Shown: one piece after another, positions 5,694-27,025 of the stretch
Layout of the letters: each line of letters begins with the position of its first letter
How positions within the stretch are numbered: the stretch's first letter is position 1
Origin: Acidipropionibacterium acidipropionici
Lineage (GTDB): Bacteria > Actinomycetota > Actinomycetes > Propionibacteriales > Propionibacteriaceae
Length of the DNA: 64,000 nucleotides
Direction of reading: 5' to 3'
Assembly (NCBI RefSeq): GCF_001441165.1
Contig: NZ_CP013126.1
Coordinates: forward strand, 2,881,551 to 2,945,550
The notes under the pieces: model-generated
What the model saw: only the letters and a program-made list of their open reading frames with translations
Databases searched by the model: none
Told to the model about the DNA's origin: nothing
Program-made: the position numbers and the translations under genes

Positions 5694-6062
5694 TCACAAC
5701 TGGTGGCGCAGGGCCATGAGGATCGCGTCGTCGCCGAAGCCCAGTTCCCTCATCGCGGAGACGTAGCCGGCAGTCAGTGCGTCGGCGCGGTCCTGAATCT
5801 CGGGCGAGGGTGCGGCGACGGGGGCGACGACGGTGCCGTTGCGGCCGCGGGTGATGAGGTAGCCCTCGACCTCCAACTCCTTGTAGGCGCGGGCAGCAGT
5901 GTTCGCGGCGATACCGAGATCGGCGGCCAGCCGGCGCACCGGCGGCAGCTTCATTCCGGCGGGCAGTCGACGGGCCAGAATCTCGTCGACCAGCTGTTCC
6001 CGCAGCTGCTCGAAGGGCGGACGGGGCCCGTCCGGATCGATCCGTAGGTTGTCCAGCCCCAT
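5694..6062 (-). CDS. GntR-family (YtrA-type) transcriptional regulator
   Basis: 122 residues. The winged-helix GntR domain spans about residues 10-75, with PFEQLREQLVDEI, LPPVRRLAADLGIAANTAARAY and YLITRGRNGTVV. The short C-terminal tail without a ligand domain is typical of the YtrA subfamily, which usually controls ABC exporters. I chose the ATG at 6062 over an in-frame upstream ATG because AAGGAGG lies five bases before it. It is 45 bases downstream of the DHFR-like gene on the same strand. No ABC transporter follows, only the possible remnant at 5414-5599. Confidence 0.88.
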   Translation of the reverse strand: MGLDNLRIDPDGPRPPFEQLREQLVDEILARRLPAGMKLPPVRRLAADLGIAANTAARAYKELEVEGYLITRGRNGTVVAPVAAPSPEIQDRADALTAGYVSAMRELGFGDDAILMALRHQL

Positions 6063-6107
6063 CACGTCCTCCTTGTTCAATATTTGCGTGACGAGTCTGC
6101 CACCCGA

Positions 6108-6635
6108 CTACCGGTCCTTGAGGACGCGGTGGTGGGCGCACACGAAGTCGCGGTTGCGCGCCACCTCGAGCAGCTCCAGATCGAGTGCCCGGGGCAGCAG
6201 CGGGCGTCCCGACCCCAGGGTGACCGGGGCGAACTGCACCCAGACCTCGTCCAGCAGCCCGGCGTCGGCGAACTGCCCGGCCAGGTCGCCGCCGCCGACC
6301 ACCCAGATGTCCTTGTCCCCGGCCGCGTCGGCGATGTCGCCGAAGACGTCGGCCACCGGGCCGCGGGCGAAGCGCAGGTCGGCGCCGTCGATGACCGGCA
6401 GGTCGCGGTGGGTGAACACCCAGGCGGGCTGGGTGTACTCCCAGGACTCCTGCTGGCGCAGGATCCACTCATAGGTCGAGGCCCCCATCGCCAGCGCTCC
6501 CATGCGCGTGATGAAGTCCGGGTAGGCCATCGGACCCTGAAGATCGAAATCCTGCTTCAACAGCCAGTCCAGCGAGTGCTCCGGGGTGGCGATGAACCCG
6601 TCGAGACTCGATGCCGTGTAGAAATGTGTGATCAT
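6108..6635 (-). CDS. dihydrofolate reductase-like / RibD C-terminal domain protein
   Basis: 175 residues with the RibD-C/DHFR-like fold signatures: ASSLDGFIATPEHSLDWL at the N-terminus, GASTYEWIL, VFTHRDLP, and the NADPH-binding WVVGGGDLAGQF, followed by the beta-strand PVTLGSGRPLLP. Members are NAD(P)H-dependent reductases of mostly unknown substrate (YyaP/YwjB group), and this is not the housekeeping FolA. It is divergent from the DUF1801 gene with a 32-base gap, and upstream of the GntR gene on the same strand. Confidence 0.85.
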   Translation of the reverse strand: MITHFYTASSLDGFIATPEHSLDWLLKQDFDLQGPMAYPDFITRMGALAMGASTYEWILRQQESWEYTQPAWVFTHRDLPVIDGADLRFARGPVADVFGDIADAAGDKDIWVVGGGDLAGQFADAGLLDEVWVQFAPVTLGSGRPLLPRALDLELLEVARNRDFVCAHHRVLKDR

Positions 6636-19410: not shown

Positions 19411-20757
19411 CTAGTGGGTGCGCCAGTATCCCTCGACCTGCCGGCCCGATCTGGTGTGCGGATGGACCCAGGTGCGTCCCGGGTCGTGCGGGGGAGCGGT
19501 GTAGCTGGTCGTCCGGAGCTGGTCCAGTGCAAGGCCGGTGACCTGGCGCAGCCGGGGAAGGATGCGGCGCCGCAGCTCGGTGGTCGGCGTCCCGGACTGC
19601 TCGTCCAGAGCCTCCTCGAAGGCTCCGGGGAGCTCGGTCGCCATCGTCCGGTAGCGGTCGAGGATCCGTGCGGCGTCGATGCCGAGATCCCGTTCGGCCA
19701 TGGTGACGATGTGACGGGGGAGCACCCGCCCCTGGCGGCGCTGGCCGCCCAGGGCCATCGCCACTGACAGGTCCAGGCCGGTGTGCTCGTAGGGCAGCGC
19801 GGTGGCCATGTCGTAGAGCGGGGCGAGCCGGGCTGCGGTCTCGGTGAGCAGGAGCGCGTAGTTCTTCGCGTGGGCGTCGGGGGACTCGGTGAGGTGGGCG
19901 AACATCAGGGCATCGGCGAGACGGTACAGGTCGGTCTGCGGATCCGAGGAGACCCTGCGGATGACGCCGGCGATGTCGGCGGCGCCCGGACCGCCGTCGG
20001 TCTCGTACTTGGGCCCGCGGCCGAGGGCCTGGCACATGTCGACCTGGTGGATCCGCCGTACCGGATCGGTGCCGCGCCGGTCGAACCGGGTGATGACCAG
20101 CGCCGGTTCGCCGTCGAACTCGCACCACTGCGTGATGGCGGTGGTCAGGCCCACCCGCTTGGCGACGCGCATCGTGAGGTGCTCGACGAGTCCCTGGTGG
20201 TGGAGCCGGGAGATGCCCGGCTTGAGGATGTGGGTGCTGGCGGCCGACCCGACGGGTCGGTGCCACCGGCCCTCCAGCAGCGCTAGCGTGAACTTGGCCT
20301 GGGCTCCGGCCAGGCTCCATCTCTCGTCGGGCATCGCCCAGCCCGCCTGGTCGGTGCGCAGCTCCCTGAGGCGTCGTCCGATCTGCACATCGGAGACCGG
20401 CTCATAGTGGGCATCCCTGCGGTCGGTGAGGCCCGGGGGCAGGAACTGCAGGGCCCCGGCGGTCTCCTCGCCCATCACCGCCAGCAGATCGAAGGTGGTC
20501 GGAGCCACCTTGAAGTGACGGGCCCAGCGCTGTCGGGTGTCGGGGTTGTCAGGCAGCAGATGGTCCAGGAAGGCGGCGACCCGACGCCGGGGCTGGGCGG
20601 CGGTGGTCGGGGCCAGGGCGGGGGAGAGCGGGATGTGGGGGCCGTTCAGGTAGTCCTCGCGGTAGCTGAGCACGGGCCCCCTGGCGTCACCGCGGCACAG
20701 GTCGGCTGCCGGCCGTCCGGCCAGCCAGACGACGAGGCGGTCATCGGGGGAGGTCAT
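19411..20757 (-). CDS. hipA: HipA-family serine/threonine kinase toxin
   Basis: 448 residues. N-terminal HipA_N domain (LSYREDYLNGPHIPLSPALA), then the kinase domain with SLAGAQAKF (148-156), ATP-binding lysine in THILKP (about 179), catalytic-loop D294-A-H-A-K-N in SPDAHAKNYALL, and the Mg-binding D316 in LYDMAT. E. coli HipA phosphorylates glutamyl-tRNA synthetase, raising ppGpp and inducing persistence; the target here is unknown. The ATG overlaps the hipB stop by four bases. All key residues are present, so it should be active. Confidence 0.9.
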   Translation of the reverse strand: MTSPDDRLVVWLAGRPAADLCRGDARGPVLSYREDYLNGPHIPLSPALAPTTAAQPRRRVAAFLDHLLPDNPDTRQRWARHFKVAPTTFDLLAVMGEETAGALQFLPPGLTDRRDAHYEPVSDVQIGRRLRELRTDQAGWAMPDERWSLAGAQAKFTLALLEGRWHRPVGSAASTHILKPGISRLHHQGLVEHLTMRVAKRVGLTTAITQWCEFDGEPALVITRFDRRGTDPVRRIHQVDMCQALGRGPKYETDGGPGAADIAGVIRRVSSDPQTDLYRLADALMFAHLTESPDAHAKNYALLLTETAARLAPLYDMATALPYEHTGLDLSVAMALGGQRRQGRVLPRHIVTMAERDLGIDAARILDRYRTMATELPGAFEEALDEQSGTPTTELRRRILPRLRQVTGLALDQLRTTSYTAPPHDPGRTWVHPHTRSGRQVEGYWRTH

Positions 20758-21017
20758 GCGTCCTCACCGAGGATCTCGGAGAGCATCGTGGCATCGTCGG
20801 TGGGCCGGGGACTCAGCACGATGCCCAGGCCCAGGGCCTGCAGTACCTTGTCGATGAGCGCCCCCGAGGGGTTCGCGGTGCCGTTCTCCATCGCATTCAC
20901 GGAGGCTCTGGAGACGCCGGCGCGTCGGGCGAGATCGTTCTGGGTCAGGCCGGCACCGGTGCGATAGTCGCGTACCGCGGGGCCCAGATCACTCCATGTG
21001 GCGAGATAACGGTCCAT
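20754..21017 (-). CDS. hipB: HipB-like antitoxin, XRE-family repressor
   Basis: 87 residues, Cro/C1 HTH: VRDYRTGAGLTQNDLARRAGVSRASVNAMENGTANPSGALIDKVLQALGL. It should neutralise HipA and repress the operon. The predicted -10 ends about seven bases before the ATG at 21017, suggesting a leaderless mRNA. The operator is at 21018-21064, with a second copy in front of the DksA-like gene. Confidence 0.9.
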   Translation of the reverse strand: MDRYLATWSDLGPAVRDYRTGAGLTQNDLARRAGVSRASVNAMENGTANPSGALIDKVLQALGLGIVLSPRPTDDATMLSEILGEDA

Positions 21018-21064: not shown

Positions 21065-21179
21065 TCCTGCGGGGTGGGGCGGGTGAAGATGCCGAAACAG
21101 CGACGCGAACGGACGTCTCGGCACGGACGGGGTCGCAGCCGGATTCCCGAGACCTCCTGGAGGCCCTCTCACAAGGAAA

Positions 21180-21278
21180 AATAACAGGCCCAGGCACCCC
21201 GACCCTCGCCGGCCTCGCGCCCCGGGGACACGGCCTCGAAACCCCGCAGCAAGGGTAGAGGTTTCGGGGCCTGTTATT
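21180..21278. repeat. 12-bp inverted repeat spanning the recombinase-like gene promoter
   Basis: AATAACAGGCCC (21180-21191) and its exact complement GGGCCTGTTATT (21267-21278) are 75 bases apart. Each arm contains a -10-like AT-rich hexamer reading outward (TTATTT on the minus strand, TATTAT on the plus strand), so this may be a symmetrical divergent promoter/operator region. Confidence 0.5.
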
Positions 21279-21287
21279 ATGGTTTCG
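21237..21287 (+). promoter_or_regulatory. GGTTTCG boxes around a leaderless promoter
   Basis: A -10 TATTAT (21275-21280) ends six bases before the GTG at 21287, predicting a leaderless transcript. GGTTTCG boxes at 21260-21266 and 21281-21287 are exactly 21 bases (two helical turns) apart and flank the -10. An inverted copy, CGAAACC, lies at 21237-21243. The same box is repeated upstream of the HTH gene at 22577. Confidence 0.55.
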
Positions 21288-22234
21288 TGAGCGGTTCAGA
21301 GTCACGCGTCCTGTCCGTCCTGCCCGATCTTCTGGCAGGCGAGTCCCGTATGTCCGAGGCCACCCGCAGGCAGCGCGAGTGGGCTGTCATGGGGGCGCTC
21401 GAGTATCTGGCCGGCAGCGCCACGATGCGCGCCATGGCCAGGATCACGGTGGCCGACCTCATGGACCCTGACGCCGTCGACGCCTACATTCGCGCCTCCC
21501 AGTCCGGCACCCTGCGCGTGCGGCGCACGGCCGGAAAGGCCGACGAGTCCCCACGCAGCACCGCGGCACGGGTCTCCGCTCTGCGCTGGTTGGCACGGGC
21601 CACCGGCACCCGCCAGCCCCCGCCGTTCGCCGACTGGACACCTCTGGCGCCGGTCCCCGAGGACGCCCCCGCGGCGCTGCGCACCGCCTGTGAGGCGCTC
21701 ACCACGATGAACAACTTCTACGCCACGCGCACCGCCGCCACCATCGCGGTGCTCTACGCCACCGGAGCCTCTGGCTACGGGCTGTGCACCCTGCGCACCG
21801 ACCAGATCGGTGCGGACCGTGGACGCCGCCTCGTCAGGGTCCCCGCCCAGGACCCCGCCCCGCAGCGCTGGGAGCCGGAGGGCGAGACGGCACTGGCCCC
21901 AGTACCGGCATGGGGCACCGCGGCCCTTGACGACTGGCTGGCCCTGCGCGCCGGGACCGTGGGCTGCCTGCAGGGGTCCGACCCCCGAACCCTGCTGGTC
22001 TCCGGGCGCGCCAACGCGGGCCCCAGGCCACCCGGCATGCCCCTGCGGCCCCGCGGCCTGGGACGCTCCTGGGCGCGGTCGCGCTATGTCGCCGAGACCG
22101 CCGTCCCCGGCCTGGAGATGCCCTCGACGGTCGAGGCCGCCTGCCGGGCCGTGCGCGCCCTCGTGCTCACCCCTGGGTCGCCGAGACCGGAGTCTCGGTC
22201 CGCAACAGCTCGGCCAGCAGCCGCACCCGCCTGA
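21287..22234 (+). CDS. tyrosine-recombinase-like protein, catalytically degraded
   Basis: 315 residues from GTG 21287, probably leaderless. The N-terminus resembles a SAM-like core-binding domain (SEATRRQREWAVMGALEYL). The middle matches the start of an integrase catalytic domain: ATRTAATIAVLYATGASGYGLCTLRTDQIG, where active recombinases have YxTGLRxSELxxLR. The first catalytic Arg is thus replaced, and MPLRPRGLGRSWARSR corresponds to the stretch before the HxLRH box. The HxxR and Tyr motifs do not follow; instead the protein ends in an Ala/Pro tail. It probably binds DNA without recombining it. The 3' end overlaps the convergent HTH gene by 68 bases. Confidence 0.6.
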   Translation: MSGSESRVLSVLPDLLAGESRMSEATRRQREWAVMGALEYLAGSATMRAMARITVADLMDPDAVDAYIRASQSGTLRVRRTAGKADESPRSTAARVSALRWLARATGTRQPPPFADWTPLAPVPEDAPAALRTACEALTTMNNFYATRTAATIAVLYATGASGYGLCTLRTDQIGADRGRRLVRVPAQDPAPQRWEPEGETALAPVPAWGTAALDDWLALRAGTVGCLQGSDPRTLLVSGRANAGPRPPGMPLRPRGLGRSWARSRYVAETAVPGLEMPSTVEAACRAVRALVLTPGSPRPESRSATARPAAAPA

Positions 22235-22577
22235 GCTGCTCCTCGAGCTCCGCATTGCGCCGCGACAGCTCCTCGACACGCGTCTGGAGCTCCTGAAGCT
22301 GCACCCGCAGCTGGGCGGGGGAGAGCCCCTCGACAGACCCCACCTCGACCCTGGACGTATCCTCGGCCCGGGTCGCCACCCGGTCGGAACGACGACGTCC
22401 CGACGCCTGGCGCTCGCGCCGGTAGCGCTCCAGATCCTCGGCCCGGACCAGCCAGCCCCGGCCCTGCCGCCGGCCCGCCACGGTGCCGTCCCGCAGCAGC
22501 GTGCGGACCCGCTGGGCGGAGACGCCCAGCAGCTGCGCCGCCACCTCGGTACTGACGAACTCACCGGTCTCATCCAT
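22167..22577 (-). CDS. excisionase/MerR-type HTH protein with C-terminal coiled coil
   Basis: 136 residues. The HTH_17-type domain (about residues 5-52) reads FVSTEVAAQLLGVSAQRVRT then GRGWLVRAEDLERYRRER. A basic linker follows, then a coiled coil, LQELQTRVEELSRRNAELEEQ, continuing to LLAELLRTE. I used ATG 22577; the frame is open far upstream but that part is junk-like. Its upstream 290 bases contain eight CGAAAC boxes (GTTTCG on the coding strand), as does the promoter of the convergent recombinase-like gene, suggesting it binds this box. Confidence 0.7.
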   Translation of the reverse strand: MDETGEFVSTEVAAQLLGVSAQRVRTLLRDGTVAGRRQGRGWLVRAEDLERYRRERQASGRRRSDRVATRAEDTSRVEVGSVEGLSPAQLRVQLQELQTRVEELSRRNAELEEQLRRVRLLAELLRTETPVSATQG

Positions 22578-22579
22578 AC

Positions 22580-22852
22580 CGAAACTTTCCCACCGAACCA
22601 GCGAAACGTCAAGGTTCCGAACGTTCGCGCCAGGTCGAAACCTGCTTCCGAAACCCTGCGAAACGTCTTCCCGAAAGCGGGTAGGATCGGCCGCACAGGC
22701 GGGCGAGGCGGCCTCCCGCTCCAAGGTTCGACGGCTCAGGATCCGGGGTCCGGTCCCGGTCCGTCCCGGAGGGCGCACCCCGAGGGTCCCCGAAAGCAGA
22801 GACGTGAGCGAGACCAGAGTATCGAAACAACGAAACCCACCGATTGCGAAAC
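22580..22852. repeat. cluster of CGAAAC boxes (iteron-like)
   Basis: All in the same orientation: CGAAAC at 22580, 22602, 22636, 22649, 22659, 22823, 22831 and 22847, with CGAAAG variants at 22672 and 22791. They fill the gap between the HTH gene (starts 22577, minus) and the AraC gene (starts 22870, plus). The density is far above chance for an A-rich hexamer in DNA this GC-rich. Confidence 0.75.
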
Positions 22853-22869
22853 CTGAGGTTCCGGCACGG

Positions 22870-23262
22870 ATGACCCTGGACACCCTCGTCCTGCTGAGGC
22901 GGGCCCGCGACCACATGGACCGCCACTACGCCGAGCCCCTGGACGTCGCCACCCTGGCCGGGCACGCCCTCATGTCGGCGGCGCACTTCTCCCGGCAGTT
23001 CAAGGCGGCCTACGGCGAGACCCCGCACGCCTACCTCATGACACGCCGGATCGAACGGTCGATGGCGCTGCTGCGCGCCGGCGCCGGCGTCACCGAGGCA
23101 TGCATGGCGGTGGGCTGCACGTCGCTGGGCTCCTTCAGCGCCTCCTTCACGCGCCTTGTGGGGGAGACCCCCAGCTCCTACCGCGGCCGCCGGCACGAGG
23201 ACGTCGAGGTGCTCCCCTCGTGCATCAGCCGGATCCTGGGCCGTCCGATGCCCCGGCGCTGA
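22870..23262 (+). CDS. AraC-family HTH protein (DNA-binding domain only)
   Basis: 130 residues, nearly all AraC DNA-binding domain: ARDHMDRHYAEPLDVATLAGHALMSAAHFSRQFKAAYGETPHAYLMTRRIERSMALL, then the second HTH EACMAVGCTSLGSFSASFTRLVGETPSSYR. There is no ligand domain. It is followed 77 bases later by a VOC protein, a pairing common in actinobacteria, where the regulator usually controls the VOC gene. Three CGAAAC boxes lie within 50 bases upstream. Confidence 0.87.
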   Translation: MTLDTLVLLRRARDHMDRHYAEPLDVATLAGHALMSAAHFSRQFKAAYGETPHAYLMTRRIERSMALLRAGAGVTEACMAVGCTSLGSFSASFTRLVGETPSSYRGRRHEDVEVLPSCISRILGRPMPRR

Positions 23263-23750: not shown

Positions 23751-24956
23751 TCAGGGACGCCCGGCCGGCACCGCAACCACCACCAGGGCGGCCGCCACCG
23801 CCACCATCATGGCCAGAGGGAGCTGCCAGCCGCCCGATGACCCGGCCAGCCGGCCGATGAGAACAGGCCCGGCGGCGGCCATGAGGTAGCCCACCGACTG
23901 CGCCGTCCCGGACAGCTGTGCAGTCTCGGCTGTGCTGCGCCCACGCATCCCGATCAGCGACAGCGCCACGACCAGACAGGCCCCGCTGCCCAGGCCCGCC
24001 ACCGTCACCCACACGACGGCGGCCCGGGGCGCCACCAGCAGCCCGATCAGACCGATGAGCAACGGCAGACCGGCGGTCAGCGCCGCACCGACCTGGGAGG
24101 TCGGGCTCCTCATCAGTCGCGGGATCGCCAGCCCCGAGGCGATGCCGACGAACTGGAAGACGAACAGGTGCACCCCTGCCGCGGCGGCCGACTGCCCCAG
24201 AGCTCCCTCGATCGTCGGCAACCAGGTGATCGCGGTGTAGAAGGAGGTCGACTGGAGGCCCATGAAGGCCGTCACCGCCCAGGTCTGCCGGCGTCTCCAC
24301 AGCGATCCCGCCGAGCCCGGGCCGGAGGCGGCAGGGGAGCGGACCGCATCGACCGGGGCCCGCAGACACCGCCCGCCCCACACCAGGGCCACGAGGCCGG
24401 CCGGCAGGGCCCACACGCCCAGCGCCGCGCGCCACCCGGAGGCGTCGGCCAACGGGACGGCCGCCACCGAGGCCAGGGCCGCGGCCAGGGTGATGCAGGC
24501 CGAGTAGACGCCGGTGGCCGCCGACACCCGACCGGGATAGTCGCGGCGCACGATCACCGGCACCAGGACATTGCCGACTGCGATCGCGGACCCGACCACC
24601 ACCGTGCCCACCCACAGGCCCGGCACCCCGGTGGTCGAGCGGATGAGGATCCCGCCCGCCAGCAGGACGACGGCGACCAGGACGGTCCGATCGGTGCCCA
24701 GCCTGGCGGCAACACGGTGGACGACGGGGGAGACCGCGGCGAAGGCCAGCAACGGCAGCGACCCGATGAGGCCCTGAGCGCCCTCGTCGATCCTCAGATC
24801 GGCGCCGAGCCGAGGCAGCACCCGGCCCACCGCGGTCAGGGCCGGGCGCAGGTTGAGAGCCACCAGGAACACCAGCGCCGCCATCACCGGCCCCCACGGG
24901 CCGTGAGAGCCCCTCGGGGAGTCGGTGCCGGACAGGTCCACACGGTTGGTCTGCAC
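23751..24956 (-). CDS. CynX/NimT-type MFS transporter
   Basis: About 401 residues with twelve hydrophobic helices, opening VMAALVFLVALNLRPALTAVG and LPLLAFAAVSPVVHRVAARLGTDR, which fit the cyanate/2-nitroimidazole (CynX/NimT) branch of the major facilitator superfamily. The start is uncertain: GTG 24956 is chosen because helix 1 begins about 20 residues later, but the frame extends to an ATG at 25058. It converges on the VOC gene, with nine bases between, and is divergent from the ATPase gene. Confidence 0.8.
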   Translation of the reverse strand: MQTNRVDLSGTDSPRGSHGPWGPVMAALVFLVALNLRPALTAVGRVLPRLGADLRIDEGAQGLIGSLPLLAFAAVSPVVHRVAARLGTDRTVLVAVVLLAGGILIRSTTGVPGLWVGTVVVGSAIAVGNVLVPVIVRRDYPGRVSAATGVYSACITLAAALASVAAVPLADASGWRAALGVWALPAGLVALVWGGRCLRAPVDAVRSPAASGPGSAGSLWRRRQTWAVTAFMGLQSTSFYTAITWLPTIEGALGQSAAAAGVHLFVFQFVGIASGLAIPRLMRSPTSQVGAALTAGLPLLIGLIGLLVAPRAAVVWVTVAGLGSGACLVVALSLIGMRGRSTAETAQLSGTAQSVGYLMAAAGPVLIGRLAGSSGGWQLPLAMMVAVAAALVVVAVPAGRP

Positions 24957-25065
24957 GGCCCCAGCCCTACCACGGCGGATCCGACCGGGCCATCGGGCGG
25001 GACGGGTGATCAGGGTCGCCTCTCCTTGCTGGACGGCGCGGCGGCCCTCATGGATCATTCAGGCC

Positions 25066-27025
25066 ATGAGGACGCAGTCACCACCCGGCCCGGCGATCCG
25101 ACAGGCTCTGAGGGCCTACCCGCTGGTCGCCGTCGTCGCGCTGACCGGGGCCGTCGGCGGGGCCTGTGCACTGCTCGGAGCCGGCGACACCGCCAGGGCG
25201 GTGATCTCGGTGGTCTGCCTGGCGCTGGCCGTGCGCCTGGTCGTCGGGATGATCCACGAGCTGCGCGCCGGCACCTACGGCGTCGACCTGCTGGCGATCA
25301 TCGCGATCGTCTCCACCGTCCTGGTCGGGGAGCACTGGGCCTCCCTGGTCATCTGCCTGATGCTCACCGGCGGCGAGGCTCTGGAGGACCACGCCCAGAA
25401 TCGGGCGACGCGCTCCCTCACCGCTCTGCTGGACAACGCCCCCACAGCCGCCACCCGGATCCTCGCGGACTCCGGTCTGGAGCAGGTGCCCGTCGAGGAC
25501 ATCGTGCCCGGCGACCGGATCCAGGTGCTGCCAGGAGAACTCGTCGGCGTCGACGGGACGCTGCTGGCCGGCACATCGAGCATCGACGAGTCCTCCCTGA
25601 CCGGGGAGCCGATGCCGGTGCTCAGGTGCCCCGGCGATCAGGTGATGGCCGGTTCGGTCAACGGCTCCTCGGCGATCGTGATGCGCGCCGACGCCGGCTC
25701 CGCCGACTTCCCAGTACCAGCGGATCATCGCCATGGTCCGCTCGGCCCAGGCCTCCCGGGCGCCCTTCGTGGCGATGGCCGACCGGATCGCCGTGCCCTT
25801 CACCGCGGTGTCGCTGCTCATCGCCGCCCTGGCATGGATCATCTCCGGGGACCCGGGACGGTTCGCGGCGGTCCTGGTGGTCGCGACCCCGTGCCCGCTC
25901 ATCATCGCCGCCCCGGTGGCCTTCATGGCGGGCATGAACCGGGCCGCGCGGGCCGGCATCATCGTGCGCGACTCCGGCTCCCTGGAACGGCTCGCGGAGG
26001 TGCGCACCGCGGCCTTCGACAAGACCGGGACGCTGACCTGCGGGGAGCCGGCGGTCACCGCCGTCATCCCCGTCGAGGGACGCGAACCCGACGAGGTGCT
26101 CGCGGTGGCGGCGGCCGCCGAGGCCATGTCGACCCATCCGCTGGCCCGGGCCGTGGTCGCCGAGGCCGCCCGCCGGGGCCTGAAGGTGCCGCACGCCGAG
26201 GAGGCCGAGCAGATCGTCTCATCCGGCGTCAGCGCCCGGATCGGCGGGCGGCCGGTGCGGGTGGGCGGTGCGGCCTTCGCCATGGGCACCGACGACTTCG
26301 CCGCCCGCGACCTCCAGGTCGCCGCCGGGGGTGCGCCCGACACCCACGTCCACGTGTGGTTCGACGGCTCAGCCCTGGGGGTGATCGAGGTGAGCGACCC
26401 GGTGCGCCCCGAGGCCGGGGCGACCCTCGAGGAGCTGTCCGAGCTGGGCATCACCGACGTCCGCGCAGGACTGCGCCCCGAGGACAAACTGGCGGCCGTG
26501 ACCGGGGCCCTGGGGCCGGTCATGATGGTCGGCGACGGCGTCAATGACGCCCCGGTGCTGGCCGCCGCCGATATCGGCGTCGCGATGGGGGCCAAGGGTT
26601 CGGCGGCCGCCGTCGAGTCCGCCGACGTCATCATCATGGAGGACGACCTGCTGCGGGTCGGCGCAGCCGTGGAGATCGGCCGTCGCACCGTCTCGGTGGC
26701 CCGTCAGGCCATCGGCATCGGGATCGGGCTGTCCCTGGCCCTGATGATCGTCGGGGCCTCCGGCGTGATGCCGCCGGTGATCGGGGCCGGGGCCCAGGAA
26801 CTCGTCGACCTCACCTGCATCCTGTGGGCCCTGGGATCGGCCCGGCCCTCCCGCCGCCCGACGAGAACCGTCGAGATCCGGCCGGCCGAGGGCACCGGGA
26901 CGACCGCGGTGGCCGAGTCCGGGGCCCGGACGGTAACGTCGGGGGCCCGGGCCGACCGGAGGGTCGGCGCACCGAGCGGCGAGTGGCGCCCGCGGGACCG
27001 GGACGAGGAGAGAACGCCATCGTGA
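25066..27025 (+). pseudogene. heavy-metal P1B-type ATPase, interrupted by a single-base frameshift
   Basis: Frame 1 (25066 to about 25708) carries the N-terminal helices, VPVEDIVPGDRIQVLPGE and SSIDESSLTGEPMPV. The homology continues in another frame from about 25709: RIIAMVRSAQASRAPFVAMADR, the metal-site TPCPLIIAAPVAF, phosphorylation motif DKTGTLT, and GDGVNDAPVLAAADIGVAMG. Removing one T of the TT at 25708-25709 restores a protein of about 652 residues. There is no N-terminal HMA domain. TPCP in helix 6 is unlike the CPC of copper or zinc/cadmium pumps. A sequencing error cannot be excluded, since everything else is intact. The stop overlaps the HAD gene GTG. Confidence 0.8.

Follow-up and report, generated by a model that had tools for sequence, protein, structure and literature searches.

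The locus described here shares features with several characterized systems, which we compare with it on the basis of excerpts of the cited reports. In the IntS/TorI system of KplE1, both the integrase and its RDF regulate the integrase gene (PMC2951348). BldC has a MerR-like wHTH that recognizes AATTnnnn(C) direct repeats, present in varying number and occupied head-to-tail, and the excerpt describes it as having no coiled coil (PMC5859096). RacA recognizes a GC-rich site, to which it binds as a symmetric dimer (PMC5859096). RdfS targets attP as well as its own promoter and, in the excerpt used, does so without a consensus motif and alongside an active integrase (PMC11963761). For Streptomyces plasmids, the excerpts of the pFP1 papers treat rep/iteron loci (PMC3583192, PMC3212956).

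Our locus lies in the window, a 64,000-nucleotide stretch of Acidipropionibacterium acidipropionici DNA that is part of a 3.65-Mb single-contig chromosome (genome G000; Propionibacteriaceae). It comprises a recombinase-like gene and an HTH gene, which are convergent and overlap by 68 bp at their 3' ends. As in KplE1, a recombinase gene has a recombinase-type site over its own start and a small DNA-binding partner; unlike IntS/TorI as covered by the excerpt, the window pair is convergent, no catalytic tyrosine was seen, and no att core was found. The HTH protein resembles BldC in its MerR-like wHTH, and the boxes upstream of its gene are likewise direct repeats, but these are CGAAAC boxes spaced 8-34 bp apart within a cluster, and the protein has a predicted long C-terminal helix. 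A wHTH excisionase fold is shared, by weak structure matches, with RdfS and with mycobacteriophage Pukovnik Xis; RdfS differs in its want of a consensus motif and in its active integrase. The HTH model finds its best fold match in RacA (E 8.6e-3), but the window boxes are direct repeats, and nothing here points to RacA-like anchoring. Streptomyces plasmid proteins (pFP1 and others) fall by profile in the same family as the recombinase-like protein, but they have a C-terminal extension, a same-direction gene upstream, ParA nearby, and no GCCTGTTAT, the site described below.

Each part of the pair is of a known kind. In a limited literature search, we found no tyrosine-recombinase family without the catalytic tyrosine acting as a bacterial regulator, and no deeply kept site of such a family with a co-conserved HTH partner.

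The gene pair and the genomes compared

The features of the locus are listed in Table 1. In what follows, G000 is the window genome, G001 is of the same genus, G195 is Raineyella antarctica, and G025 is of the same genus as G195; G050 is Actinopolymorpha alba, f3 stands for four genomes that are probably Nocardioidaceae, and the genus of G768 is probably Streptomyces. The AraC-type gene of G001 is in two pieces in two frames (L013, about 5940-6330), with the adjoining boxes remaining, so it is probably not required for whatever keeps the boxes. A HipA-like gene and an HTH_3 gene precede the recombinase-like gene at 19411-21017 on the minus strand, with the outlying CGAAAC box in between. An Rfam scan of the window gave no match.

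Table 1. Features of the recombinase-like/HTH locus, in window coordinates
Feature	Position	Strand	Details
Recombinase-like gene	21287..22234	+	315 aa, GTG start; Cre/Xer-type predicted fold
Recombinase-like protein, residues			No tyrosine after LRR-like region; Arg I position is Ser (TGAS)
HTH gene	22167..22577	-	136 aa; HTH_17 at residues 8-56
HTH protein, C-terminal helix			Predicted, long; residues 87-128
AraC-type HTH gene	22870..23262	+	Beyond the box array
Five CGAAAC boxes beside HTH start	22580..22664	+	22580, 22602, 22636, 22649, 22659
Two CGAAAG variant boxes	22672..22796	+	22672, 22791
Three CGAAAC boxes beside AraC-type gene start	22823..22852	+	22823, 22831, 22847
Three CGAAAC/GTTTCG boxes around recombinase-like start	21237..21287		21237 +, 21261 -, 21282 -
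Further CGAAAC box near recombinase-like gene	21093	+	
Conserved site GCCTGTTATTA	21269..21279	+	Begins 18 bp before GTG
-10-like TATTAT	21275-21280		Overlapped by GCCTGTTATTA site; read by eye
Second, inverted site copy GCCTGTTATTT	21179..21189	-	1 mismatch; 90 bp upstream

A predicted recombinase fold under selection

The predicted fold of the recombinase-like protein matches Cre chains (best E 2.1e-6, 304 columns, TM about 0.5) in a model built from 6 sequences (pLDDT 76.6, pTM 0.61), and profile comparison pairs the protein with XerA (E 1.7e-5). A Pfam scan of the window protein found no match, including to Phage_integrase, which does match 8 of the 17 aligned members of the family (best 1.3e-10). 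A profile alignment against the active Raineyella recombinase gave nothing significant, and PADLOC returned nothing for the protein.

The catalytic R-H-R-H/W-Y set is incomplete in the window protein, in which, by eye, the tyrosine is absent and Arg I is replaced by Ser; the chain stops about 30 residues past the LRR-like region, again without a tyrosine there by eye. In the short family members, the window protein among them, the chain stops short of the expected position of the catalytic tyrosine, which we take from Cre. Read by eye from sequence tails, no tyrosine lies 20 residues or further beyond the LRR-like region in any of the 14 site-bearing members. The long members hold tyrosines within their extensions, and a script failed to locate the LRR-region anchor in 4 of 38 rows (G499, G668, G950, and G862), so in these proteins tyrosine loss is no more than possible. 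For the window protein, the residues point to a relative of recombinases that seems to have lost its cutting residue.

The preliminary description called this gene degraded, a term that the data do not support: its frame is open, relatives from other families likewise lack the C-terminal part, and the protein is under purifying selection. Its dN/dS is 0.10 between G000 and G001 (dN 0.052, dS 0.496) and 0.22 within Raineyella (0.158/0.709).

A conserved site over the recombinase-like start

In all 12 loci first compared, GCCTGTTAT(Y)A with at most one mismatch starts 17-37 bp ahead of the start codon, which in several cases was chosen by alignment in preference to the first one in the frame. 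These loci belong to Propionibacteriaceae, Actinopolymorphaceae, Kineosporiaceae, and f3. Across the family, the site is present in 14 of 38 members, window included, and in five families, with G768 and G803 completing the 14. The remaining 24 rows are without it, so GCCTGTTAT is a property of part of the recombinase-like family; one row counted among them, G814, has a one-mismatch copy downstream. Presence is clustered on the tree (4 changes, where shuffling gives 11.5 on average and none of 500 shuffles gives so few). A single origin is not supported, as the starred branches require 2 changes or more. The 38-row tree omits six rows (G642, G583, G539, G941, G926, and the second copy of G499), and all six are without GCCTGTTAT at one mismatch or fewer in the stretch searched.

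A second copy of the site is often present. An inverted copy lies upstream at 90 bp in G000, 89 in G001, 103 in G025, 101 in G195, and 92 in G050, where both copies carry the identical base change; G768 has two direct copies 94 bp apart. Three Kineosporia loci (L031, L032, and L033) each have one extra GCCTGTTATC(A/G) copy upstream and another downstream of the gene, all pointing the same way, with a mismatch in one of the three upstream copies. The layout of copies on either side of the Kineosporia gene is att-like.

Counting exact matches only, GSCTGTTATYA occurs once each in G000, G001, and G025 and twice in G195, and all five occurrences are at the locus. The 197 family genomes hold 33 exact matches in 28 genomes; 28 of these matches are in 24 of the 193 other genomes. 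Confinement of the exact site to the locus in the four gene-bearing family genomes makes a wide regulon unlikely. A mobile origin of the site was also considered and rejected: two scans of viral contigs for the pattern turned up 15 and 72 stretches, which we take as chance matches because the median G+C is 0.39 (87 loci) and no recombinase-like relative occurs among 869 ORFs. A promoter scan gave no correctly oriented match at the recombinase-like or the HTH start; one minus-strand match, at 21305-21276, overlaps with the start of the recombinase-like gene. The upstream site copy falls in the tail of a minus-strand terminator-like match (1 found, 0.8 expected).

The HTH protein and the upstream box array

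The HTH protein matches HTH_17 in Pfam (E 9.3e-10) and, just above the cut-off (29.3 bits versus 28.8), the excise-type domain TIGR01764. Its model, built from two sequences only (pLDDT 76.5, pTM 0.38), combines a wHTH with the C-terminal helix, and its best fold matches, among them RacA, Pukovnik Xis, RdfS, and BldC, are all weak (E 8.6e-3 and worse). PADLOC gave a weak mad1 match (E 6.6e-6). The dN/dS of the gene is 0.28 between G000 and G001 and 0.45 in Raineyella.

The window holds 19 CGAAAC matches on both strands, 8 of them within 22580-22852 and all of these on the plus strand. The total is only mildly unusual (mean 10.96; 3 of 100 shuffles reach it), so the clustering is what counts: 8 boxes were observed in 22578-22869 against 0.63 expected, and 0 of 5000 local dinucleotide shuffles reach 8. 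The same test upstream of the HTH gene gives 0 of 5000 in G001 and G195, as in G000, and 3 of 5000 in G025. G001 has 7 boxes in this stretch, the first two spaced by 22 bp as in G000. Box columns are identical between G000 and G001 in 44 of 48 cases and other columns in 157 of 245 (Fisher p 7e-5), in a single pairwise alignment, which itself seeks matches. Orientations are mixed upstream of the HTH gene in Raineyella (4 and 5 boxes in G195, 2 and 3 in G025). Upstream of the recombinase-like gene there are 3 boxes in G000 (5 of 5000 shuffles reach this) and 2 in G001 (61 of 5000), and the two Raineyella-genus genomes have no CGAAAC boxes there.

Much of what the preliminary description reported here was borne out. 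The eight CGAAAC and two CGAAAG boxes upstream of the HTH gene are present at 22580-22852, its MerR/Xis-type HTH protein with a coiled coil agrees with the excisionase/MerR-type wHTH and predicted long C-terminal helix, and conservation of the boxes with the gene pair in relatives, whose absence it would have taken as a refutation, is seen as clusters upstream of the HTH gene in four of four genomes. Its boxes flanking the recombinase-like start exist in G000, with three around the start, but are only weak in G001 and absent in Raineyella. The same box orientation for both genes applies to the HTH gene (all 8 are GTTTCG on its coding strand) and to 2 of the 3 recombinase-like boxes, but the box at 21237 is opposite. 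The genome-wide scan for box clusters that it proposed was run, and 70 of 142 family genomes turned out to contain triple CGAAAC clusters, often in the form of tandem repeats, which rules them out as a unique mark of the locus. They occur solely at this locus in G000 and G001 and solely upstream of the HTH gene in G195; in G025, they sit only elsewhere, in a 15-bp tandem repeat. The regulon that it envisaged, if meant as a wide one, does not agree with the confinement of both the exact site and, in G000, the triple clusters to this locus.

Distribution and neighborhood

The recombinase-like gene belongs to a sparse actinobacterial family, found in 4 of 198 family, 9 of 391 order, and 13 of 394 class genomes, in 18 of 246 from the genus to which G768 belongs, and in 6 plasmid records, all Streptomyces, with cut-offs that differ between the searches. 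At E 1e-9, relatives of the HTH protein occur in 4 of 293 order genomes, the same four family genomes that have the recombinase-like gene; every family genome with the HTH gene therefore has both. G050, which has the recombinase-like gene, gave no HTH protein match at E 1e-5, and the plasmid records searched with the HTH protein gave none.

Flanks of the recombinase-like gene are common to the three Kineosporia and to G258 and G358, and G768 and G803 share a flank next to it, but G379 and G229, of one genus, do not share flanks. This mixture indicates that the gene was inherited in place in some genera and moved or rearranged in others. A search of genome contigs with the single recombinase-like protein found no relative, nor did the viral contigs or the phage searches with the window and Kineosporia proteins. 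Matches to the pFP1 protein came from 4 phage records, covering two phages twice each, and PHROG 6657, of unknown function, was matched by the pFP1 and Kineosporia members but not by the window protein.

In the Streptomyces plasmids, a same-direction gene directly precedes the recombinase-like gene (L037:3027-5065, L034:3549-5161), and inverted repeats stand before it by eye. We do not claim that the recombinase-like gene is the plasmid replication gene RepA, an identity that the pFP1 papers do not show. In Raineyella, G025 has a Phage_integrase gene immediately upstream of the locus (L014:3913-4959), and an integrase look-alike, read by eye, lies 2.8 kb upstream in G195 (L024:9716-10762); these are possibly partners or chance neighbors.

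Discussion

Descent of the window genes from an integrase/excisionase pair is plausible, in line with the proposed remnant of an integrative element except for its degradation. The evidence suggests that such a pair was retired and kept by selection as DNA-binding regulators. The explanation we favor, with about even confidence, is a chromosomally settled DNA-binding pair derived from a tyrosine integrase and an excisionase, whose products were kept as self-binding, probably self-repressing proteins. A more far-reaching version is possible but tentative: the recombinase lineage may long have been non-catalytic, acting as a sequence-specific regulator or DNA-bridging protein that keeps its 9-11 bp site across five actinobacterial families at an identity of its own below 30 percent, and in Propionibacteriaceae it may have joined the box-array HTH protein as a self-contained two-protein nucleoprotein switch.

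With the site and the boxes assigned to their proteins by position and co-occurrence, we would expect the recombinase-like protein to bind the GCCTGTTAT copies and repress its own, probably leaderless, promoter, and to bridge two copies where two exist. The HTH protein would line up on the CGAAAC boxes and shut its own promoter, and in the window genus it may shut the recombinase-like promoter as well. Strand exchange would not be expected. Both genes look leaderless, with a box or the site around a -10-like hexamer and the start, as judged by eye; the promoter scan found neither. Such a scheme would resemble the regulation that an integrase and its RDF exert on the integrase gene, kept after the loss of catalysis. 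If so, the pair would be a clean case of a site-specific recombinase turning regulator, with site, partner, and losses placeable on one tree, and it would hint at what an unnamed family does, one that has Streptomyces plasmid proteins among its members and some overlap with PHROG 6657.

The site and the boxes could each have a simpler origin. GCCTGTTAT might be merely the -10 region of a leaderless promoter, not bound by the recombinase-like protein, since by eye it runs into TATTAT or TATCAT before the start codon in 8 of 12 loci. We consider this unlikely, because GCCTG is kept too, the site of the four f3 genomes does not make the hexamer, and second copies are found inverted 89-103 bp away or direct at 94 bp (G768), downstream in three of three Kineosporia, and with one shared change in G050. 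The boxes, in turn, might be operator sites for an HTH or AraC regulator of the ordinary type that acts on nearby genes, with the recombinase-like gene a bystander; three boxes do lie directly before the AraC-type gene in G000 and G001. The two-frame AraC gene of G001 speaks against this, as do the absence of an AraC gene among the ORFs beside the Raineyella locus, where boxes persist, and the fact that the HTH gene was never found without the recombinase-like gene, and we give the idea little weight.

The relatives on plasmids raise another alternative, in which a plasmid-type maintenance cassette for partition or replication control was fixed in the chromosome, with the box array as centromere and the recombinase-like protein as co-factor. 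A ParA gene lies within about 2 kb of the Streptomyces plasmid relatives in 5 of 5 regions read (six records matched), RacA is the best, though weak, fold match of the HTH model, and exact sites are confined to the locus. Nevertheless, a partial Pfam scan of 11 window ORFs (the gene pair itself among them, and two being pieces of one gene) and 4 Raineyella ORFs found no partition NTPase, GCCTGTTAT is missing from the five plasmid members, none of the plasmid records gives an HTH protein match, and the Kineosporia have chromosomal flanks in common, as do G258 and G358, in contrast to G379 and G229. Nothing in the window is positive for partition or for the DNA-organizing role once proposed. We regard this origin as improbable. 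A live recombination system, working with an active Xer-type partner or as an invertible promoter between the inverted copies, is the least probable reading by far. It would draw on the Phage_integrase gene of G025, the look-alike in G195, and the inverted copies that flank the promoter. Against it, the tyrosine is missing from its expected place, copies 89-103 bp apart are unlike a core site, the arrangement is identical in both Raineyella and both window-genus genomes, and the four f3 genomes have no inverted copy (two mismatches or fewer, within 1.5 kb).

Outside the locus, the window also holds a P-type ATPase gene (24925-27025, plus strand) that is split over two frames, with E1-E2 ATPase positions 3-87 in one piece and 101-180 in the next; a frameshift near 25.7 kb is probable.
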